Origin: Cycloclasticus sp. symbiont of Poecilosclerida sp. N
Lineage (GTDB): Bacteria; Pseudomonadota; Gammaproteobacteria; Methylococcales; Cycloclasticaceae
Assembly (NCBI GenBank): GCA_002101205.1
Contig: LWTM01000073.1
Location: 1-64,000 of the forward strand
Direction of reading: 5' to 3'
DNA length: 64,000 nt
Shown: positions 50,297 through 64,000 of the stretch, one piece after another
Layout of the letters: each line of letters starts with the position of its first letter
How positions within the stretch are numbered: position 1 is the stretch's first letter
Notes under the pieces: model-generated
What the model saw: only the letters and a program-made list of their open reading frames with translations
What the model was told of the DNA's origin: nothing
The model's database searches: none
Made by a program: the position numbers and the translations under genes

Positions 50297-51352
50297 ATGG
50301 CTAGATCAACAAATAAAAAAGTTATTATCATACGTAACTTTATTCTTCATCGACTGCTAAATAATTCAAGGACAGTAATACATGACACCGTAGAGGAGTT
50401 TAGTCTTACACGCCAAACTGTGAGTCGTCATCTAAAAGCTTTGGTTGATAGTGCTGATGTACTTGCACAAGGTGAAACAAAATCACGTAAGTATAGACTT
50501 GCAACGAAATTCAGGATTAGTGAAGATATTGAAATTTTACCAGAAACCGAAGAAGACAGTATATGGACTAAGTTAGTTAGACCACATATTACGGATGTAG
50601 AAAAAAATGTAATGGAAATATGTCACTACGGTTTCACCGAAATGATGAATAATGTTATTGACCATTCTGATTCTAAAGTGGCTAGGATTCATATTCGACG
50701 TACTGCTGTTTCTATAGTTATGAGGATCACGGATAAGGGTATTGGTATTTTTAAAAAAATCCAAGGGGATTTTGACTTAGATGACCCGCGCCAGGCGCTA
50801 CTCGAATTGTCAAAAGGTAAGTTAACTAGTGATCCCGATAATCACTCTGGTGAGGGGATATTTTTCACCTCAAGAATGTTTGATAAATTTATGATTCGTT
50901 CGGGAGAAATGGTGTACATGTGCATGCCTAGTAATGAAGATTATTTATTTGAATCTCGTGAGAAGATATTCGCTACAGGCACAGCAATTCATATGAGTAT
51001 CGAATTTGATTCCACACGAGATAGCACTGAGGTATTTAATAGATTCACTGCTGATGACGATGACCATGCTTTTTCCAAAACACACGTGCCTGTTTTTCTA
51101 GCTAGTTACGATAACGATCAGTTAGTTTCAAGATCAGCCGCAAAACGTGTACTTACAAGGTTTACAAAATTCAAAGAGGTTTGGCTAGATTTCCAAGGAG
51201 TAGAAAAAGTAGGGCAAGCATTCGCAGATGAAATATTCCGCGTATATGCCAAAGCTAACCCAAGTGTTAGCTTATTTTACTCAAATGCAAACAATGAAGT
51301 TACAGGAATGGTTGAGCGAGCTGTTAATAAACTAAAAGAGACCTCAGCATAA
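50297..51352 (+). CDS. HTH - HATPase_c - DUF4325 (STAS-like) protein
   Basis: 351 aa; N-terminal winged HTH (FSLTRQTVSRHLKALV); GHKL ATPase N-box EMMNNVIDHS, G-box DKGIGIF and SGEGIFFTSRMFD; C-terminal WLDFQGVEKVGQAFADEIFRVY. Confidence 0.8.
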   Translation: MARSTNKKVIIIRNFILHRLLNNSRTVIHDTVEEFSLTRQTVSRHLKALVDSADVLAQGETKSRKYRLATKFRISEDIEILPETEEDSIWTKLVRPHITDVEKNVMEICHYGFTEMMNNVIDHSDSKVARIHIRRTAVSIVMRITDKGIGIFKKIQGDFDLDDPRQALLELSKGKLTSDPDNHSGEGIFFTSRMFDKFMIRSGEMVYMCMPSNEDYLFESREKIFATGTAIHMSIEFDSTRDSTEVFNRFTADDDDHAFSKTHVPVFLASYDNDQLVSRSAAKRVLTRFTKFKEVWLDFQGVEKVGQAFADEIFRVYAKANPSVSLFYSNANNEVTGMVERAVNKLKETSA

Positions 51353-51752
51353 CTTGGTTCTGGTATACCGTAGAGCGTTAAAAACTTAGCCCCTTTGCGA
51401 CTGTTCGCAGCCATGGCAGCTAAACCATAAACGGTTGCATTTTTGCCCAGCCCCATAAATCGAGTTCTGGCAAGCCGATAATGTCTCTTATACGTGGCAA
51501 AGGGTCGCTCACCACCTGCTCAAGTGACCGCAATGGCTTCGTTGCAGGCTTGCTCTTGTTTTGATAAAGGTTTACCTCGATACCCCTTGCGTTGCACTTG
51601 ATCGGCCATGCCGAACTTAGCTAACTTAATCTCGGGTCTGTTGTGAGCTATAAGCAGCATCCGCATACAGTGCACTCTCATCACCTAACAATAAGGTGTC
51701 ACGCTCTTGAGAATCGTGAACATTACCGGGCGTCACGCTTTGGCGAGGTCTC
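51338..51752 (-). pseudogene. IS5-family transposase relic (C-terminal part)
   Basis: Reverse strand reads MADQVQRKGYRGKPLSKQEQACNEAIAV and ERPFATYKRHYRLARTRFMGLGKNATVYGLAAMAANSRKGAKFL; ends marked by GAGACCTC / GAGGTCTC. Confidence 0.75.
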
Positions 51753-51887
51753 AACAAAATTCATGCGGATTTGTTGGGTTGTACTGTCAGCACTTGTACT
51801 GTCAGCACTTGCACTGTCAGCGCTGGCACCGCCAGTGCACGTGCCGCCGGTCAGTGCCGGCGGTGTAAGTACACGTGCTGAGGTCTC
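51745..51887 (-). repeat. MITE-like / IS5-family end repeat, copy 3, with 15-bp tandem repeats
   Basis: Ends with GTGTAAGTACACGTGCTGAGGTCTC; contains CAAAATTCATGCGGATTTGTTGGGTT as in copy 1; internal TGTACTGTCAGCACT tandem units. Confidence 0.65.
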
Positions 51888-52037
51888 ATTGAAAACAAGC
51901 CACAGTGCAATATATGGTGGACTCATACAAATAATAGACTTGGTAAATGTTTAGGGTATCAAACCCCATTTGAGGTCTTTGCTGAGATGACTGGTGAATA
52001 CTATTTTTTAAATGAAAGTGTTGCACTTATGGGTTGA
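51888..52037 (+). pseudogene. fused transposase tails: IS481-like integrase end joined to IS30-like C-terminus
   Basis: Frame IENKPQCNIWWTHT (compare IENKPQCNMWRVHT at 511-567) runs into NNRLGKCLGYQTPFEVFAEMTGEYYFLNESVALMG*. Confidence 0.6.
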
Positions 52038-52224
52038 GTTCGCCTTATTTGAAAAAGGCTATATTTTCGTTAAAGGTGGTAAGATTCAACAAAACCATAA
52101 ACGAGTGTCCACAAAGTATTTAGAAAAAATAATAAATAAATTACAGGGTAATTCTGTTTCAAATTGGTCAGGTAGTGCTAAGTATTATTCATGGCATGAA
52201 ACAAAATATAACAAGGCCAATTAA
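52038..52224 (+). CDS. hypothetical, possible integron cassette ORF (5' end uncertain or truncated)
   Basis: Frame FEKGYIFVKGGKIQQNHKRVSTKYLEKIINKLQGNSVSNWSGSAKYYSWHETKYNKAN* ends inside the attC-like site. Confidence 0.35.
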
Positions 52225-52281
52225 CATGGGTATTTTGTTACGCTGCGCTTCACAAAATTCCAGTTACTGGCGACGTTAGGC
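52206..52281 (+). other. integron attC-like recombination site
   Basis: TATAAC-AAG-GCCAATTAAC-ATGGGTATTTTGT-TACGCTGCGCTTC-ACAAAATTCCA-GTTACTGGC-GAC-GTTAGGC: nested imperfect palindrome bounded by AAC and GTTRRRY core. Confidence 0.55.
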
Positions 52282-52390
52282 AGAATCACTCTCGCTTCTA
52301 GTTATTTTCTATAAAAAAACTAGAGGGCTAATCAAGAAAATTAGTAACCAAAACTAATCATTTAAAAGGCTTTAAATAGCGATTTCTATA

Positions 52391-53419
52391 ATGAATAAAT
52401 TAACCGTGCAAAATGAATTAACCGAATTTTTGCTTTATAGCAATGGCAATAATGACATCAGAGTAGAAACCTATTTATATGATGAAACATTATGGCTGCC
52501 ACAAGTACAAATAGCCCAATTATTTGGCGTGCAAGTGCCTGCAATTAGCAAGCATTTAAAAAATATATTTGAGACAGAAGAATTAGATGAAAAAGTGGTT
52601 GTTTCCATTTTGGAAAATACCACTCAACATGGTGCTATTGCTGGGAAAACTCAGAAGACAAGCATCAAATATTACAATCTTGATGCTATTTTGTCTGTTG
52701 GTTACCGCGTTAATTCTAACAAGGCAACCCAGTTTAGAATTTGGGCAACTGGCACTTTAAAAGAATACATCATCAAAGGCTTTGTTATGGATGATGATCG
52801 CCTTAAAAATGGTAAACATTTTGGTAAGGATTATTTCAAAGAGTTATTAGAACGCGTTCGCTCAATTAGAGCCAGTGAACGCAGAATTTATCAACAGATA
52901 ACCGATATTTACGCTGAATGCAGTATTGATTATGATAAAAATTCCAAGACAACTAAAACCTTTTTTGCTAACGTTCAAAATAAATTTCACTACGCCATTA
53001 CAGGGCAAACGGCCGCTGAAATTGTCAACACTCATGCCGATAAGTCTTTGCCTTATATGGGATTAAAAACTTGGAAAAATGCACCTAATGGCAGAGTTTT
53101 GAAATCTGACATTTACATTGCTAAAAATTACTTACAAGAAAATGAAATTAAAGGTTTAGAAAAAGTTATTAGTTCATATTTTGACCATATTGAAATAGTT
53201 ATTAACAATCGCACTAAAATGACTATGGAGGATTTGGCTAATTCTGTGAATAAATTTTTAGAATTTAACGAATACAAAATACTAGAGAATTTAGGAAATA
53301 CAAGCAAACAACAAGCCGCAAACAAGGCGGAATTAATCTATGATGAATTTAATAAAACCCAAAAAATAAATTCTGATTTTGATAAAGCCATCAAACGAAT
53401 AAAGGCTAAAGGCGGGTGA
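52391..53419 (+). CDS. RhuM family protein
   Basis: 342 aa; TLWLPQVQIAQLFGVQVPAISKHLKNIFE, QFRIWATGTLKEYIIKGFVMDDDRLKNG. Confidence 0.88.
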   Translation: MNKLTVQNELTEFLLYSNGNNDIRVETYLYDETLWLPQVQIAQLFGVQVPAISKHLKNIFETEELDEKVVVSILENTTQHGAIAGKTQKTSIKYYNLDAILSVGYRVNSNKATQFRIWATGTLKEYIIKGFVMDDDRLKNGKHFGKDYFKELLERVRSIRASERRIYQQITDIYAECSIDYDKNSKTTKTFFANVQNKFHYAITGQTAAEIVNTHADKSLPYMGLKTWKNAPNGRVLKSDIYIAKNYLQENEIKGLEKVISSYFDHIEIVINNRTKMTMEDLANSVNKFLEFNEYKILENLGNTSKQQAANKAELIYDEFNKTQKINSDFDKAIKRIKAKGG

Positions 53420-53629
53420 TAAATTTTTATTCGAAAGTTAAATACGCTTGCAGAATATAGCGCAATAACGGACAAAAATTATCCGTTTGCTAATGACAAT
53501 ATTAATCAAAAATTAGAATTAAAAAAGCACCAAAAACAAGCATCTAATCGTTTTTGGTTTTACTATGAGTGCAATTGTTGGATTAATCCCAAGCAATACT
53601 TCATTGGTTGTTTGGAGATTCAATAGCGT

Positions 53630-53981
53630 AATTTAAAAATAGCGTTGCGTTTATTGAGTGCTGATTTTGATAAATCACTTTCCATATTTTGCGGCATTTT
53701 GCGGCTCGTCCAGTACCAAAACTGGCTGAGTTTGGGCAATAAACTCAATCATTTTGCCTTGTGTATCATCACGCCTATCTTCGTTAATAATATTATTATC
53801 CGAATTAAACGCCTGAACACTCATCACCAAAATACTCAATTCATTACTGCTGTAAAAATCTCTCAATAAACTAATTTTTCGCCGACTTTCACCCTCATAA
53901 GCAAACACACTGAGATTAGTATTAAAACTTTTATAAAAATGCGAATGCGTGCTGCGTAAGGTTTTCGTATTGGATTTTCAT
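53630..53981 (-). pseudogene. res: type III restriction enzyme (Res) relic
   Basis: HFYKSFNTNLSVFAYEGESRRKISLLRDF...KMIEFIAQTQPVLVLDEPQN; removing one copy of a 10-bp duplication restores DEPQNMESDLSKSALNKRNAIFKLRY. Confidence 0.7.
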
Positions 53982-53993
53982 TAAAACCAGAAC

Positions 53994-54266
53994 TTAAATA
54001 TGCAATTGAATTTTATCCGTAGCATATTGATGGATCAGCGAAGATATCAAGGTTTGATAAGGAATATTGGACTCAGTGCTTTTACGCTTCAACATCAATA
54101 TATCTGCTTCTGACAAACGAATATTGATATTTTTAGTTTTATTTAGATAATTTTTTGCCATGATTTTAGCCTCAAGCATAGCCTGTTCATAATCATTGAC
54201 CCGTTCAAATTCATCAGTTTTATCCACTAAATCTAATAATTCTAATTCTTCTTTATCTAATTTCAT
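53994..54266 (-). CDS. CopG/BrnA-like antitoxin
   Basis: 90 aa; C-terminal INIRLSEADILMLKRKSTESNIPYQTLISSLIHQY ribbon-helix-helix-like. Confidence 0.75.
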   Translation of the reverse strand: MKLDKEELELLDLVDKTDEFERVNDYEQAMLEAKIMAKNYLNKTKNINIRLSEADILMLKRKSTESNIPYQTLISSLIHQYATDKIQLHI

Positions 54267-54355
54267 TTTGCCTCCCTTTCTAGCATTAATTCTACCAATG
54301 CCACTCGCTCATTCAGTGGCATTTTTATCGCTTCCTGGATTAAATTTTCGTTCAT
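54263..54355 (-). CDS. 30-aa small ORF (addiction-module-like)
   Basis: MNENLIQEAIKMPLNERVALVELMLEREAK; ATGA overlaps with both neighbouring genes. Confidence 0.45.
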   Translation of the reverse strand: MNENLIQEAIKMPLNERVALVELMLEREAK

Positions 54356-54936
54356 TTCTTAACTGGCTGTGGTGGGTTTTTATTTGGTTCAGCAGGTCTA
54401 CTATTAGCTGGCTGTGACGGGTTTTTATTTACTTTAGAAACTTCGCTAACACCTCTGTCAGAACTGTTATTTTTATTTACTTTGGCAACATTACTAATAC
54501 CATCTCGAAAAGTATTTCTTTTATCTGTCATATCTGTATTCCTGTTTACTTGATTAAAAAATAAAGCCACTGCAAATATTGCACTAGTTATTACCGCTAT
54601 TGAAAAAGGTATATATTTCACTTTATCCAATACTGTGAGTTCTGGCGTCTCATCCGCATTACCTGTGTTTTCCATAATTTTCAGTAATTGTTTTCTATTA
54701 TAATAAAAAACAAGCATTATCAATATACCCGTTATAAAAAACATAACTAATGCCATAATAGAAGAAATAAACATTATTTCGCTAATCTCATCTAAATCTT
54801 TAATTAAAGAAATAAAAAAACCTATTCCAGCAACTGATAATCCTAATATAAGTTTATCATTATCAGACTCATTTTTAAAAAATGCTAGTAAAGATGCCTT
54901 ATATAGTTCGTGTTCTTTATTTAGTTCGTCACTCAT
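54352..54936 (-). CDS. hypothetical membrane protein with Asn/Pro/Lys-rich tail
   Basis: 194 aa; about three hydrophobic segments (LILGLSVAGIGFFISLI, IMALVMFFITGILIMLVFYY, FSIAVITSAIFAVALFF); tail repeats KVNKN.S.; starts 3 nt after the mod relic stop. Confidence 0.65.
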   Translation of the reverse strand: MSDELNKEHELYKASLLAFFKNESDNDKLILGLSVAGIGFFISLIKDLDEISEIMFISSIMALVMFFITGILIMLVFYYNRKQLLKIMENTGNADETPELTVLDKVKYIPFSIAVITSAIFAVALFFNQVNRNTDMTDKRNTFRDGISNVAKVNKNNSSDRGVSEVSKVNKNPSQPANSRPAEPNKNPPQPVKK

Positions 54937-57690: not shown

Positions 57691-57952
57691 AAACGCGGTA
57701 AAGGGAGTTTGCCTAGCTAATAGGCTAATCAAAGGGTAACGTCCCATTTAGTCGGCTGTCTTATCTAGCAGTCAGTCCGACTTAGCCGCCTACATGATTC
57801 CTGCCTACTCACCTAACACATAAAATAATACAAAAATTGGTGGTCAATACGCCAACAAGTAAAGTAAATTAATTGAAATAAAATGAACCATTCCCTTCAA
57901 TTTAGTAAATTTAATGATAAAATTACGCGAAAATACTTAGAAAGAGTAAATT

Positions 57953-59062
57953 ATGAAGTATTATGCTGAAATATCAAAAATCGTAAATGGAGCTCTATCT
58001 GGTGACCGAAAACGAGTTACGTCTTACACTGAAATGCTTTGCGAAAAACTGGAAAAAGATGGCGAAGTTATAGCCATTAAGGGATTTAGAGAAAAGCTAT
58101 CAAGTATTAACAGTAGAACTATCGGCGCTCATTCCACATTCTCTCGTCCAGTTCCAGTGGAAAAAGATAATCGTTTTTCATTGGCAGATAAGACGTTTCC
58201 ATCAGTACAGGAGCAAATAGTTTTTTTACCAGCGGATGAGCAAAAGATGATAGGTTCTTTTATTTCCTATATTCATAAAAAAGATCAATTAGATTCAATG
58301 GGCATACCCATTAACTCAACGTTATTACTACACGGTATACCGGGTACTGGTAAAAGTAAGTTAGCAGGAAATCTAGCTGCGAGCTTAGGCTTACCATTAA
58401 TAACAGCAAGAGCCGATGCATTAATATCTTCGTATCTAGGGTCAACATCAAAAAACATACGATCACTATTAGAATACGCCCGCTCTGAGCCATGCGTATT
58501 ATTTTTGGATGAATTTGACGCTATAGCAAAAGCTAGAGACGATAAAAATGAGATTGGTGAATTAAAACGTGTAGTAGTAAGTTTGTTGCAAAACATTGAC
58601 AACCTAGGAGATACAATTCTAGTAGCTGCAACGAATCACGTACACTTATTAGATCCTGCGATAGGAAGGCGATTCCACTATAAAATGGAATTAAAAGCCC
58701 CCACAGAAGAAGTACGCTTCCAGATATTTTCTTCCCTTCTTGATAGATTTTCTTTTAGCAGGGTAGATATTGAGAATTTTGTCACATTGAGTAACGGATT
58801 AACTGGGGCTGAAATCGAAATAGTAACTTTCGATTATTTAAGACAGATGGTTATCAATGAAGATAAAATTGAAGCTATAGAGTTAATACGTAAAACATTA
58901 TTAAGTCGATTTAGTTGGTTAAGTTTTACGATAGAAAATCGCTTTAATAACATGTCAAAATTACACTCAATAGATAAAAAAATATTTAGCAAGAAGTTTA
59001 TAAGTCAACTTTGGAACATGTCACAAAGCAATGTATCTAAGATATTTAAGGAAAATAATTGA
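57953..59062 (+). CDS. ietA: AAA-family ATPase, IetA-like
   Basis: 369 aa; Walker A GIPGTGKSK, Walker B VLFLDEFDAI, ATNHVHLLDPAIGRRF; followed by a subtilase gene. Confidence 0.85.
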   Translation: MKYYAEISKIVNGALSGDRKRVTSYTEMLCEKLEKDGEVIAIKGFREKLSSINSRTIGAHSTFSRPVPVEKDNRFSLADKTFPSVQEQIVFLPADEQKMIGSFISYIHKKDQLDSMGIPINSTLLLHGIPGTGKSKLAGNLAASLGLPLITARADALISSYLGSTSKNIRSLLEYARSEPCVLFLDEFDAIAKARDDKNEIGELKRVVVSLLQNIDNLGDTILVAATNHVHLLDPAIGRRFHYKMELKAPTEEVRFQIFSSLLDRFSFSRVDIENFVTLSNGLTGAEIEIVTFDYLRQMVINEDKIEAIELIRKTLLSRFSWLSFTIENRFNNMSKLHSIDKKIFSKKFISQLWNMSQSNVSKIFKENN

Positions 59063-61233
59063 TGACGGATAATCGCAACCCTATCAAGCATGTAAAATTT
59101 TCAGACGTTGATTATTTTGAGCCAACGGTTCATCCAGGTGGAAATAGCAAGCTCCATAAGCAAGTTACTGATGAGTTTAAAACCGAATTACTGGACTCTA
59201 TCAAAAGCCTTGCTCAGGCCAAAGGCTTTAAGGACAAGGTAACCGTTGCTGTTGTAGAGTTAGAAAGTAAGGCCACGGCTAAAAGTAGTCGTCCTACCGA
59301 AATTTTTAACGATAAGACCTGCCCATTTTTTGGTGATGCTGGATATGCGAAGCACTTAATTCAAATAACGCCAGGCGGCTTATCAAAATTAACTCAAAGA
59401 ATTTCTGAAGCAAGTTCAAAAAAAGCTATAAAGGCTATCTCTGCAATTAAATCCATCAGCCATTATGAAGTCAGTGTAAGTGAAGATACAGATGCGAATT
59501 CATTAAGTGTTAGATTATTTCGCTTTAACTCAGCAGAAAAAAATAGAAAACTAGATAGTGATTTCGAACAGTTCCTGAATAAATTTGACTGCGAATGGAT
59601 AAGGCATTCATCAGATAATGTTCGGCTATACCGAGTCTCAGGTTCGACAAAAAACATGCTAGACTTACTCCCCAAACTTGCTGGCATACAAAGTATTATG
59701 TCAAGCAAATGTATTCAACTAAAGCCCATGAGCCAAGCTCAAACGGGTGTTAACCCCACAATAATGTTACCACCGATTGAGGGCAAAGATTACCCTGTTG
59801 TAGCGGTAGTTGACAGCGGCATTAGCCAGTCCTGCCCTCCTCTTCAATCATGGGTTGTTGCTCGAACTACCTGCATTGCCCCTGCTTATAAAAATGATGC
59901 CCACGGTACTTTTGTTAGTGGGTTAATAACAAATAGCTTTAATTTAAATGGTGCAGATCCTCGTTTTCCACTTTGCCAGTCAAAAATATATAGTGTTGAA
60001 GTATTAGGCGATGACGGTGGTGACCTTTTTGGTATTATTGAAGCAATGTATGAAGTTGCTGAAACGAACCCAAATATTAAAGTATGGAATCTATCACTAG
60101 GTGGCAATGAGCCTGTTTCTAAATCTGAGATTTCAACAATGGCGCTCATGCTTGATGAGTTTCAAGATAAATTCAACTGCTTATGTGTTGTTGCTGCCGG
60201 AAATTATGAAGGAGTTGTTCGTCGAGTGTGGCCGCCAGTGGCTATATTAGAGGATGGAATATCAACACCGGGAGACTCAGTTCGTTGTTTAACTGTTGGC
60301 TCCGTCGCACACATTGATGGATTTGTGAAGAACAAAGAACCATCTCATTTCAGTAGAAAAGGACCAGTATCAAATTATGTTCAAAAACCAGAAGTAGTTC
60401 ATTTTGGTGGCAACATTATGGTAAATGGAGGACAACCAGTTGTACTTGGCGTTAACTCAATTGATGCTAAAGGTAATTCACATCATGATATTGGAACTAG
60501 TTTCTCGACGCCAATAGTATCCTCTATAGCAGCAAACTTATTCGAACAAATAGGGAAAATAGCGACCCCTAGCCTTGTTAAAGCATTAATCATTCACAGT
60601 GCTAACTTGAATGATAATATTCGTGATGAGCATAAACCGTATTATGGGTGGGGTAAGCCACAGGGTAGTGAAGATATATTGGCAGTAAAGGATTATGAAA
60701 GTACTATGGTTTTTGAAGGACAAGCTCAAAAAAGCTTTGAAATTCAAAAACTGCCTTTCCCTATACCAGATTGTTTGAGAACTAATGAAGGAAAAGTTCG
60801 TGCAGAATTTTTTATTACGTTGGTTTATCACCCTGAACTTGATCCACAAAAAGCTTTTGAGTATTGCCAAATGGACGTAAAAGTTGGATTTGGTAAAATT
60901 GATGACGGTAAATTCAATTCACAAGTTCCGCTACAAAATGAGCAGTATTTATTTGAAAGTGATTTAGTGAAAAATGGGGATAAATGGTCTCCAGCAAAGG
61001 TATATAAGAAGCAATTCCCCAATGGAGTCGACATTAAAGACTGGAAGTTAAGAGTCTCAGTAATGGAGAGGGAAGGCTATGAATCTGAAGGGGTATTGAT
61101 TCCATTTACTATTGTATTAACAATGCGAGACCTTGATAAAGAGCAACCAGTTTACAATGAAATGTCACAATTGATGGACCAATATAACTGGGAAGTTTCA
61201 GATCTAGTTATTGATAATGAAATTAAAGTGTAA
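59062..61233 (+). CDS. ietS: S8 subtilisin-like serine protease, IetS-like
   Basis: Triad motifs VVAVVDSGIS, AHGTFVSGLI, GTSFSTPIVSS; start ATG at 59062 overlaps the ietA stop by 1 nt (TGATG). Confidence 0.88.
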   Translation: MTDNRNPIKHVKFSDVDYFEPTVHPGGNSKLHKQVTDEFKTELLDSIKSLAQAKGFKDKVTVAVVELESKATAKSSRPTEIFNDKTCPFFGDAGYAKHLIQITPGGLSKLTQRISEASSKKAIKAISAIKSISHYEVSVSEDTDANSLSVRLFRFNSAEKNRKLDSDFEQFLNKFDCEWIRHSSDNVRLYRVSGSTKNMLDLLPKLAGIQSIMSSKCIQLKPMSQAQTGVNPTIMLPPIEGKDYPVVAVVDSGISQSCPPLQSWVVARTTCIAPAYKNDAHGTFVSGLITNSFNLNGADPRFPLCQSKIYSVEVLGDDGGDLFGIIEAMYEVAETNPNIKVWNLSLGGNEPVSKSEISTMALMLDEFQDKFNCLCVVAAGNYEGVVRRVWPPVAILEDGISTPGDSVRCLTVGSVAHIDGFVKNKEPSHFSRKGPVSNYVQKPEVVHFGGNIMVNGGQPVVLGVNSIDAKGNSHHDIGTSFSTPIVSSIAANLFEQIGKIATPSLVKALIIHSANLNDNIRDEHKPYYGWGKPQGSEDILAVKDYESTMVFEGQAQKSFEIQKLPFPIPDCLRTNEGKVRAEFFITLVYHPELDPQKAFEYCQMDVKVGFGKIDDGKFNSQVPLQNEQYLFESDLVKNGDKWSPAKVYKKQFPNGVDIKDWKLRVSVMEREGYESEGVLIPFTIVLTMRDLDKEQPVYNEMSQLMDQYNWEVSDLVIDNEIKV

Positions 61234-61311
61234 ATTATTTTAGGTAATTATATACTTATGTGACCCAGCATCATGTGGTACAATATCTCCTAGAGTCTTA
61301 GGAGATATACC

Positions 61312-62229
61312 ATGATACAGAATTTTGATAGCTTGTACGACATGATGGAAGCGTTCCCAGATGAGCAATCCTGCATTGACCAACTCCGGTCAATTCGATG
61401 GAAAGAAAGCGCATATTGTCCACATTGCGGCAGTACGAAGGTGTACCATTTCTCTGATAACAAAACACATAAATGCGGCGACTGTCGTAAGCGATTTAGC
61501 ATTAAGGTTGGAACTATCTTTGAAGATAGTAAAATTGCGTTGCGAAAATGGTTTGTTGCTATATACCTTATAACTTCACACAAAAAAGGCATCGCCTCAA
61601 CTCAACTCGCCAAAGATATTAAGGTAACGCAGAAAACAGCATGGTTTATGTTGCAGAGATTGCGCCATGCCAGTCAGACTAGATCGTTTAACCAGCCGCT
61701 TTCTGGGTGCGTTGAAATTGATGAAACATACGTCGGCGGCAAAGAATCAAATAAGCATAAAAACAAAAAGAAAAAGGGAACTCAAGGCAGGAGTACAAAG
61801 ACTAAAACAGCCGTAATAGGAATGGTAGAGCGCGGTGGAAAATTACAGACAAAAAGCGTAACCAACGTTGATTCAAGTTCCATTATCCCAATAATTACAG
61901 ATAATGTAGAGTTTGGAACAAGCATTATGACTGATGAATTTAGGTGTTACCGACAGCTTTCAGACAGATATAATCATCGTTACATTACTCATAGTGTAGG
62001 CGAGTATGTGAACGGTGATATTCACACAAATACAATCGAAGGCGCATGGTCTTTGTTTAAAAGAGGCGTTGTAGGTATTCATCATCATATAAGCCGTAAG
62101 CATTTAGATAAATACTTAGGTGATTTTACATATCGATACAACACGCGTCACCTTGGTGAAGGCGAAAGAGTCAATGACTTTCTGTCCGGTTGTGGTGGAC
62201 GCTTAACATATAGGAAATTAGTATCATGA
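61312..62229 (+). CDS. IS1595-family (ISXO2-like) transposase
   Basis: 305 aa; zinc ribbon CPHCGSTKVYHFSDNKTHKCGDC, VEIDETYVGGKE, IMTDEFRCY, HTNTIEGAWSLFKRG. Confidence 0.93.
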   Translation: MIQNFDSLYDMMEAFPDEQSCIDQLRSIRWKESAYCPHCGSTKVYHFSDNKTHKCGDCRKRFSIKVGTIFEDSKIALRKWFVAIYLITSHKKGIASTQLAKDIKVTQKTAWFMLQRLRHASQTRSFNQPLSGCVEIDETYVGGKESNKHKNKKKKGTQGRSTKTKTAVIGMVERGGKLQTKSVTNVDSSSIIPIITDNVEFGTSIMTDEFRCYRQLSDRYNHRYITHSVGEYVNGDIHTNTIEGAWSLFKRGVVGIHHHISRKHLDKYLGDFTYRYNTRHLGEGERVNDFLSGCGGRLTYRKLVS

Positions 62230-63188
62230 GTGATGAAAAATATGACAAACCTGTGATTCTTGATATGGATTTGGATGAAGCATTAACCAAATTTGCGTCT
62301 GTAACAAAAGAAGAAATACAAGAAAAAGATAATCCACAAGGTGAATTGTTAAATGAAGGTGAAACACAACTTGTTAAATTCAGGGGTAAAGAAGTACGGC
62401 AAGTATTCCATGAAAACGAGTGGTTTTTCTCTGTTGTGGACATTATGGAAGCCGTGGTCGGTACTGATAGACCAAGAAAGTATTGGTCTGACCTAAAGAA
62501 GCAACTTATTGATAAAGAAGGATATTCCGAGTTGTCCGATAAAATCGGACAACTGCCAATGAGGGCTTCTGATGGAAAAAACTATAAAACAGATGTGGTA
62601 AATACTGAAACACTGTTTCGTATCGTACAGTCTATCCCGTCCAAAAAAGTTGAAGCTATAAAGCGCTGGCTTGCGAAAGTTGGCTATGAACGAATCAAGG
62701 AAGAGCAAGACCCTGAAATTGCTATTAAACGGGCAATGCTTACATATAAAGCTCATGGTCACACTGACGAATGGATTAATGCCAGAGTACAATCAATAGT
62801 TAGCAGAAAAATACTCACTCATGAGTGGCAGAAAAGAGGCGTAGAAGGAAAGCAGTACGCATTTTTAACAGACACCATATCTAAAGAAACATTTGGCGTT
62901 AAAACTAAACAGCACAAGCAAATTAAGGGCTTAACAAGCCAAAATCTGCGTGACCACATGTCACCGCTAGAGTTAGCACTAACTATGCTTGGTGAAACGA
63001 CTACAGCGGAAATAGCGAAGAACACAGATGCGCAAGGCTATACGGAAAATGAAAGCGCAGCGCATTCTGGTGGCAAAATTGCAGGTGATGCTAGAAAAAA
63101 TATCGAGCGGAAATTGAACAAAAAAATATTAACAGATGATAATTTTCTGCCTGATAACCCTAAGAAACGCCAACGCAACCTAACTTAA
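62226..63188 (+). CDS. Bro-N domain (antirepressor/DinD-like) passenger protein
   Basis: 320 aa; VKFRGKEVRQVFHENEWFFSVVDIMEAVVGTDRPRKYWSDLKKQL; ATGA overlap with the transposase. Confidence 0.82.
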   Translation: MSDEKYDKPVILDMDLDEALTKFASVTKEEIQEKDNPQGELLNEGETQLVKFRGKEVRQVFHENEWFFSVVDIMEAVVGTDRPRKYWSDLKKQLIDKEGYSELSDKIGQLPMRASDGKNYKTDVVNTETLFRIVQSIPSKKVEAIKRWLAKVGYERIKEEQDPEIAIKRAMLTYKAHGHTDEWINARVQSIVSRKILTHEWQKRGVEGKQYAFLTDTISKETFGVKTKQHKQIKGLTSQNLRDHMSPLELALTMLGETTTAEIAKNTDAQGYTENESAAHSGGKIAGDARKNIERKLNKKILTDDNFLPDNPKKRQRNLT

Positions 63189-63399
63189 AAATAAATCATT
63201 ATTGAACGATGAGTACGTTTTGCCTGGCTGGGTCACATAAGTATATAATTACCTTATTTTAATATGAGACCTTTGCATGACGACACTATTTCGCCTTGCA
63301 TTTAATTGAGGCTCTTTTTTTAACAAAAAAAGGGCTAAAAAGCCCTATTTTCTGCAAATTCATAGTCGTTGGCCTATTTTGTTCCTCTATTTCCATTTT

Positions 63400-64000
63400 T
63401 TAGGCAAAACTTGCCTGCTGAATCGATAACGCTCGTTTAAGGTTATGAGCCACACACATCAGTTCAAAACGGGTGCGATTCCTATTCAGGCCTAAATAGC
63501 GAGCTTTGGCCATTCCGTAATGCTGCTTCAATACACCAAAAACTCGCGCAACTGTGCACCGTACGCCTGAATGGTTTCGCTTCTTTATTGAGTGGCTTGT
63601 TGCGGTAAGCACGCTTGATGATTCTGTTCTCAATATGTCGTTCTGCCAGCCACGCACCATGAGCTTGGCTTTGGTAGGCGCTATCTGCATAGACGGATGT
63701 TTCATCACCACTGAGTAAGCCGATGAAGCAGTTGGAGTCATGGAGGTTTCCAGCCGTGTAATCGGTTGATTTAATGAAGCCATCTTCGTCAACACTCACA
63801 TGGGCTTTATACCCGTAGGTGCTTTTACGCTTCCCATCGGAGCCTGCTTTTACATTCCAGTTTGCTTCGCGGTCTTGAGTCGATTCACCCTGCTTATTTT
63901 TGTTGGGACGACAGTTTTTGCTTCAATCACGCTGGCATCAACGATGCTTACCTCTCCAGACTTAATGTATAGACCTTGATCGCTTAATTGGTGATTTATC
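63400..64000 (-). pseudogene. IS5-family transposase, frameshifted and cut by the window end
   Basis: Reverse frames give SIVDASVIEAK, NCRPNKNKQGESTQDREANWNVKAGSDGKRKSTYGYKAHVSVDEDGF, SVYADSAYQSQAHGAWL and HYGMAKARYLGLNRNRTRFELMCVAHNLKRA; at least two frame changes. Confidence 0.8.

Follow-up and report, generated by a model that had tools for sequence, protein, structure and literature searches.

The window, by which we mean the whole 64,000-nucleotide stretch of DNA analysed here, carries a gene pair that probably forms a functional IetAS system of toxin-antitoxin type serving abortive defence, in which the ATPase IetA would restrain the protease IetS and autoregulate the operon through a helix-turn-helix (HTH) acting on phased promoter repeats. 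Judged by its sequence, the pair is real, intact and under selection, and is an ordinary addition to the known IetAS family. The family-level regulatory feature, comprising the predicted HTH tail and the repeats, is apparently undescribed as far as we found: we met no description of either in the IetAS literature, within which the founding paper on pTiC58 and the 2020 defence survey may mention them. This predicted tail, the phased repeats and the defence-island setting go beyond the earlier sequence-only reading of this DNA. Together with the tailless members of the family, which form a natural control, the tail and its lineage-specific repeats may open a direct experimental route to the way in which the ATPase senses conditions and controls the protease.

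Identity and conservation of the gene pair

Both genes lie on the + strand, with ietA directly upstream of ietS, and both were called by PADLOC profile matches. The ietA gene (57953-59062; ATG 57953, TGA 59062) encodes an AAA+ ATPase of 369 aa, and ietS (59062-61233; ATG 59062, TAA 61233) encodes an S8 subtilase of 723 aa, the two sharing a 1-nt overlap in TGATG. The ORF listing also offers an alternative TTG at 59059, one codon upstream of the ATG. The ATG in TGATG is taken as the homologous ietS start because the related loci L006, L058, L059 and L063 share the 1-nt overlap. An ATPase with Walker A and Walker B motifs, overlapping through TGATG an S8 protease with a D/H/S triad, is what the sequence-only reading had described, and its coordinates and motifs are as claimed.

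The ietAS-like identity proposed at the same time is clear from the profiles: IetA matches PADLOC IetA (PDLC02196) at 4.7e-128, with residues 1-368 on profile positions 1-371 of 374, and IetS matches PADLOC IetS (PDLC02197) at 9.6e-247, with residues 1-723 on profile positions 1-749 of 749. A Pfam scan of the pair gave AAA and Peptidase_S8 as the sole noteworthy matches, and a PDB sequence search with IetA and IetS returned general AAA and subtilisin homologues only. Matches to NCBIfam IteA (NF042959, 395.8 bits) and IteS (NF042956, 620.5 bits) are also full-length and fall short of the curated equivalog thresholds (510 and 900 bits, respectively). We therefore classify the pair as IetAS in the broad sense, outside the narrower NCBI IteA/IteS subfamily. 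The order of ietA then ietS is found in nearly all of ~160 viral loci.

The catalytic residues of both proteins are present. IetA has a Walker A motif at residues 128-134 (GIPGTGKS; 58334-58354, + strand) and a Walker B motif, CVLFLDE, at residues 181-187 (58493-58513, + strand), both placed from the alignment of relatives, along with a sensor asparagine (N228) and arginine fingers (R239/R240). IetS has the triad D251, H281 and S480 and the oxyanion residue N381. All of these, the Walker motifs included, are invariant in alignments of 44 sequences in which identity to the window protein runs from 21 to 77% for IetS and from 22 to 77% for IetA. The closest proteins, 70-77% identical, come from a Colwellia MAG and two viral contigs. 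Comparing the pair with these three relatives gave dN of 0.14-0.20 and pS of 0.72-0.76, so that synonymous sites are saturated, a pattern that points to strong purifying selection on the pair. The low dN against saturated synonymous sites, along with the full-length profile matches, is taken to rule out a chance origin.

Architecture of IetS

A sequence scan of IetS found no signal peptide and no membrane segment, and the protein should therefore act in the cytosol. We modelled IetS with AlphaFold2 (AF2) from the 44 sequences (pLDDT 88.0, pTM 0.91). The S8 catalytic domain covers residues 244-531 (59791-60654, + strand), with D251 at 59812, H281 at 59902 and S480 at 60499. It is followed by a predicted beta-rich C-terminal domain at residues 546-714 (60697-61203, + strand; AF2 and Foldseek), which contains the family motif K641-W-S-P-x-K.

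The long N-terminal region of the protease had been called unknown in the sequence-only reading, and is now partly explained by a propeptide-like fold in the model. This alpha/beta region covers residues 61-218 (59242-59715, + strand; AF2 model and Foldseek). Residues 147-214 are modelled in the order beta-alpha-beta-beta-alpha-beta, with a further alpha/beta segment before it at 61-134. That order is the one found in subtilase propeptides (the I9 fold). The best Foldseek matches of IetS include pro-forms, namely ProN-Tk-SP (3afg) and unautoprocessed pro-subtilisin E (3whi). No member of the 44 has a named Pfam domain at the N-terminus, and the propeptide assignment accordingly rests on the predicted model. 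Most likely, the N-terminal region is an internal propeptide-like inhibitor or chaperone, and such a module suggests how the toxin may stay latent within the cell.

Genomic setting

The pair comes from a 1.9-Mb draft genome that is ~98% complete, and sits in a low-GC chromosomal defence island. The GC fraction of the island stretch is 0.377 (ietA 0.347, ietS 0.384), compared with 0.429 for the first 49.8 kb. The low-GC stretch follows lnt, after which two congeners have other genes. Within the window the island contains a HATPase-STAS (DUF4325) protein, RhuM (PADLOC candidate PDC-S05) and BRO (PADLOC candidate PDC-S13). A low-GC segment at 50297-54936, holding genes for a HATPase with a DUF4325 STAS-like protein that has an N-terminal HTH, RhuM, a CopG-like protein and a small membrane protein, probably represents more island genes. 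Past the window (L062:655-3553, contig 64655-67553) lie an SpbK-like TIR gene with a GIY-YIG-like N-terminus and then genes for an Eco47II-type endonuclease and a C5 methyltransferase; these TIR and restriction-modification genes indicate that the defence island continues.

Downstream of the pair, a complete IS1595-family element (61243-63253) starts nine bases past the ietS stop. Its ends are perfect 28-bp inverted repeats (61242-61269 and 63227-63254), flanked by an 8-bp target duplication, TTATTTTA, at 61235-61242 and 63254-63261. The BRO/DinD-like gene (62226-63188; PDC-S13) lies inside the element and overlaps the transposase stop, so the insertion sequence appears to carry this candidate defence gene along as a passenger. 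Two overlapping IS5-type transposase-like frames at 63400-63799 are probably a frameshifted remnant.

Among relatives, two of the closest (73% and 70%) are in prophages on viral contigs, near S24-type repressors, one of them also near a tyrosine integrase. In one genome of the same order, both locus genes score exactly like those of the Methylotuvimicrobium alcaliphilum plasmid MEALZ_p (L013, L054), which makes Methylococcales the probable order.

This setting bears on whether the pair could be purely an addiction module, one that acts only to penalise loss of the island, or of a plasmid or prophage that carried the pair earlier, and does not usefully protect against phage. We consider this unlikely. 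The first accounts of both sgiAT (Salmonella Genomic Island 1) and the pTiC58 pair presented them as stability systems (PMC5006074), plasmids carry many relatives (117 records), and of 18 genomes in the genus this one alone has IetS of the window type; another S8 gene, in G005, matches weakly (3e-7). Against such a role stands the repeated company of defence genes, which includes restriction-modification, TIR and candidate genes here, Shedu at L053, TIR genes at L243 and an abortive-infection gene at L248, as does the frequent carriage of relatives by prophages.

The IetA tail and the promoter repeats

The AF2 model of IetA has three helices within residues 4-54, before the AAA module, and three more after the lid, at 330-340, 347-353 and 358-367. 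The latter three form a predicted C-terminal HTH (residues 330-367; 58940-59053, + strand; pLDDT ~83-94) with weak Pfam HTH matches. When C-terminal pieces of IetA proteins were searched separately, HTH families were matched in eight of ten, the window's included, with best E values from 0.00018 to 0.015, all scoring under the Pfam cut-offs; N-terminal control pieces of the same proteins matched no HTH family. Textbook HTH sequences can also be seen by eye in many relatives, for example SQAKIAEIMGISPSTVNHHLKS, and the length of IetA past the RRF motif falls into two classes, 87-96 aa (without the HTH) and at least 124 aa (with it). Most IetA proteins, that of the window among them, are predicted to end in an HTH. 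The same genome has a second IetA-like ATPase without the tail (L061:9083-10060; G000:C66:11083-12060; PADLOC IetA 3e-80), an orphan with no IetS or IetS remnant nearby.

Ahead of ietA, three direct repeats of AGTAAATT on the + strand are spaced at exactly 41 and 41 bp. The first (57863-57870), a candidate IetA operator, is conserved in L006 and L058; the second (57904-57911) abuts the promoter and is conserved in L006, L058 and L059; and the third (57945-57952) runs up to the base immediately preceding the ietA start codon. Related copies number three at 41/41 bp in L006, are spaced at 41/42 in L058 and number two at 41 in L059, and the second copy is kept in relatives although synonymous sites in the genes are saturated. 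The promoter is a putative extended -10 element, TGATAAAAT (57915-57923, + strand), whose TGnTAnnAT pattern is kept in four relatives. A consensus scan for a + strand sigma-70 promoter ahead of ietA found none; there is no -35 hexamer, which is why the scan missed this element, and it emerged from comparing relatives. A palindromic operator was also considered and rejected, as inverted repeats upstream of ietA are not common to relatives, and direct repeats were favoured.

None of 100,000 Markov shuffles contained a 41-bp triple of the AGTAAATT motif, a motif picked after it was seen, while an equally spaced exact 7-mer triple of any kind arose in 0.0004 of shuffles. Since the motif was chosen post hoc, it is the general test over the family that carries weight. 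In 65 non-redundant ietA upstream regions, 45 of the 78 offsets between exact 8-mer repeats, spread over 30 loci, are phased, where phased means 20-21, 40-42 or 61-63 bp (~20.5 bp or multiples), compared with 9.9 expected (binomial 6e-21, with bins chosen after inspection). The controls stay at background, with 2/33 and 3/21 offsets phased in the ietA body and 5/44 further upstream, and repeats ahead of the other genes at these loci occur at shuffle level. Class-wide and phylum-wide searches for close chromosomal IetS yielded almost none more, and an independent test was for this reason made on plasmid loci; eleven fetched later gave 9/13 phased offsets in 7/11 loci. The repeat words themselves differ by lineage, with four to five copies of TTTTGATTC in L185, four of ATCGTCCAC in L158 and three of AAAATATCG in L070. 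At L185 (4998-6095 and upstream), an intact IetA with five phased TTTTGATTC-like repeats is accompanied by an IetS remnant of ~95 aa.

Phased repeats occur at 36 of 73 loci whose IetA has the HTH tail and at 1 of 11 whose IetA does not (p=0.019). Given this association across the family, the simplest reading is that the IetA tail reads the repeats, and we infer that IetA may be a DNA-binding autoregulator besides restraining IetS. The repeats could instead be read by another regulator, of the carrier or the host, leaving the tail a different role, and the lack of a phased exact 8-mer at about half of the tailed loci would fit this. Such a reader is nonetheless doubtful, as the repeat words are specific to lineages while the spacing recurs in phages, in plasmids and in chromosomes across different phyla, and the repeats are scarce where IetA has no HTH.

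The role of the ATPase

The AAA domain of IetA is nearest to FtsH, proteasomal ATPases, p97 and Vps4, and L162-G163 at its pore-loop position is invariant in the 44 sequences. These features would suit a loader rather than an antitoxin, that is, an unfoldase that would pick out phage proteins and pass them on to IetS in the manner of ClpX-ClpP or FtsH. We regard this as improbable. At pore-loop residue 161, no more than 25 of the 44 sequences have an aromatic side chain, and the model of IetS shows an ordinary subtilase that brings its own propeptide-like module rather than a chambered protease. In addition, the proteases of relatives are toxic alone and their ATPases suppress the toxicity: both sgiAT of Salmonella Genomic Island 1 (PMC5006074) and A132/T133 of Mycoplasma (PMC8562856) are functional toxin-antitoxin pairs in which the ATPase neutralises a toxic protease, with toxicity seen in E. 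coli or mycoplasma (PMC5006074; PMC8562856).

Gene decay among viral loci, with IetA grouped at 95% identity, runs in one direction: IetS is disrupted or absent next to an intact IetA in eight clusters, and in no cluster is IetA broken. A toxin would be expected to decay ahead of its antitoxin in this way, although the statistics are weak (one-sided p ~0.04, two-sided 0.059). An exception is L116:4443-6632 on a viral contig, a divergent IetS-like subtilase with an intact triad and no IetA-like ATPase beside it. The gene upstream of this lone subtilase looks by eye like a C39-type cysteine peptidase.

That the pair in the window is itself a decayed or silent remnant is scarcely credible, for although the island is rich in insertion sequences and one of them begins just after ietS, the frames are intact, the catalytic residues complete, the purifying selection strong and the promoter element conserved.

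Proposed mechanism

In the toxin-antitoxin reading that we favour, IetS would be a toxin, a subtilase that works in the cytosol and whose N-terminal part supplies a propeptide-like module, and IetA, presumably as an AAA+ ring, would keep it harmless. Through its C-terminal HTH, IetA would occupy the repeats, which lie in helical phase along its promoter, and in this way control how strongly the operon is expressed. If IetA were then lowered or disengaged by an infection, by shut-off of the host or because the element is lost, IetS could be freed, and its proteolysis may halt cell growth before the invader spreads. Autoregulation fits the practice of type II toxin-antitoxin systems, and its sign may be either. 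When SGI1 was present, the sgiAT promoter seemed more active, and the authors of that study took this to agree with self-regulation (PMC9927553); this rise fits poorly with simple self-repression.

A bolder proposal, which we hold only tentatively and think more likely wrong than right, is that IetA represents a broadly distributed group of AAA+ antitoxins whose rings bind DNA sequence-specifically, with six C-terminal HTHs on iteron arrays in two-helical-turn phase. When bound to DNA, the ring would tie the release of IetS to how many copies of the resident element are present or whether that element is intact, or else to invading DNA that draws IetA away by titration. If true, a single mechanism would underlie what is seen in the IetAS family as incompatibility, stability and anti-phage phenotypes.

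Comparison with known systems

The toxin-antitoxin and anti-phage background of ietAS given in the sequence-only reading is borne out for relatives (PMC5006074; PMC8562856; PMC11878078), and a 2025 paper states the mechanism of IetAS to be unknown (PMC11878078). The pair in the window shares with PADLOC IetAS the order of AAA+ then S8, full-length matches, the catalytic residues and the setting in an island or mobile element. With sgiAT it shares an ATPase-protease operon and the same predicted roles, but the sgiAT genes are 20 bp apart whereas those here overlap, and it is for sgiAT that toxicity and neutralisation have been measured. Expressed from its own promoter, sgiAT gave no post-segregational killing (PMC5006074). 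Mycoplasma TA132/3 likewise consists of an AAA-ATPase and then a subtilisin-like protease (353 and 757 aa), but is from a distant host and has a demonstrated function.

Secreted pro-subtilisins (Tk-SP, 3afg; pro-subtilisin E, 3whi; KP-43, 1wmd) resemble IetS in the catalytic domain and, on the predicted model, in the propeptide-like module, and Tk-SP and KP-43 also have a beta-rich C-terminal domain. In contrast to these enzymes, IetS lacks a signal peptide and comes with an ATPase partner. The IetAS of Pf phage PfAC08 likewise combines an S8 peptidase with an ATPase, on a temperate phage; it differs in that a Pf phage bearing IetAS is statistically associated with phage resistance (PMC11878078).
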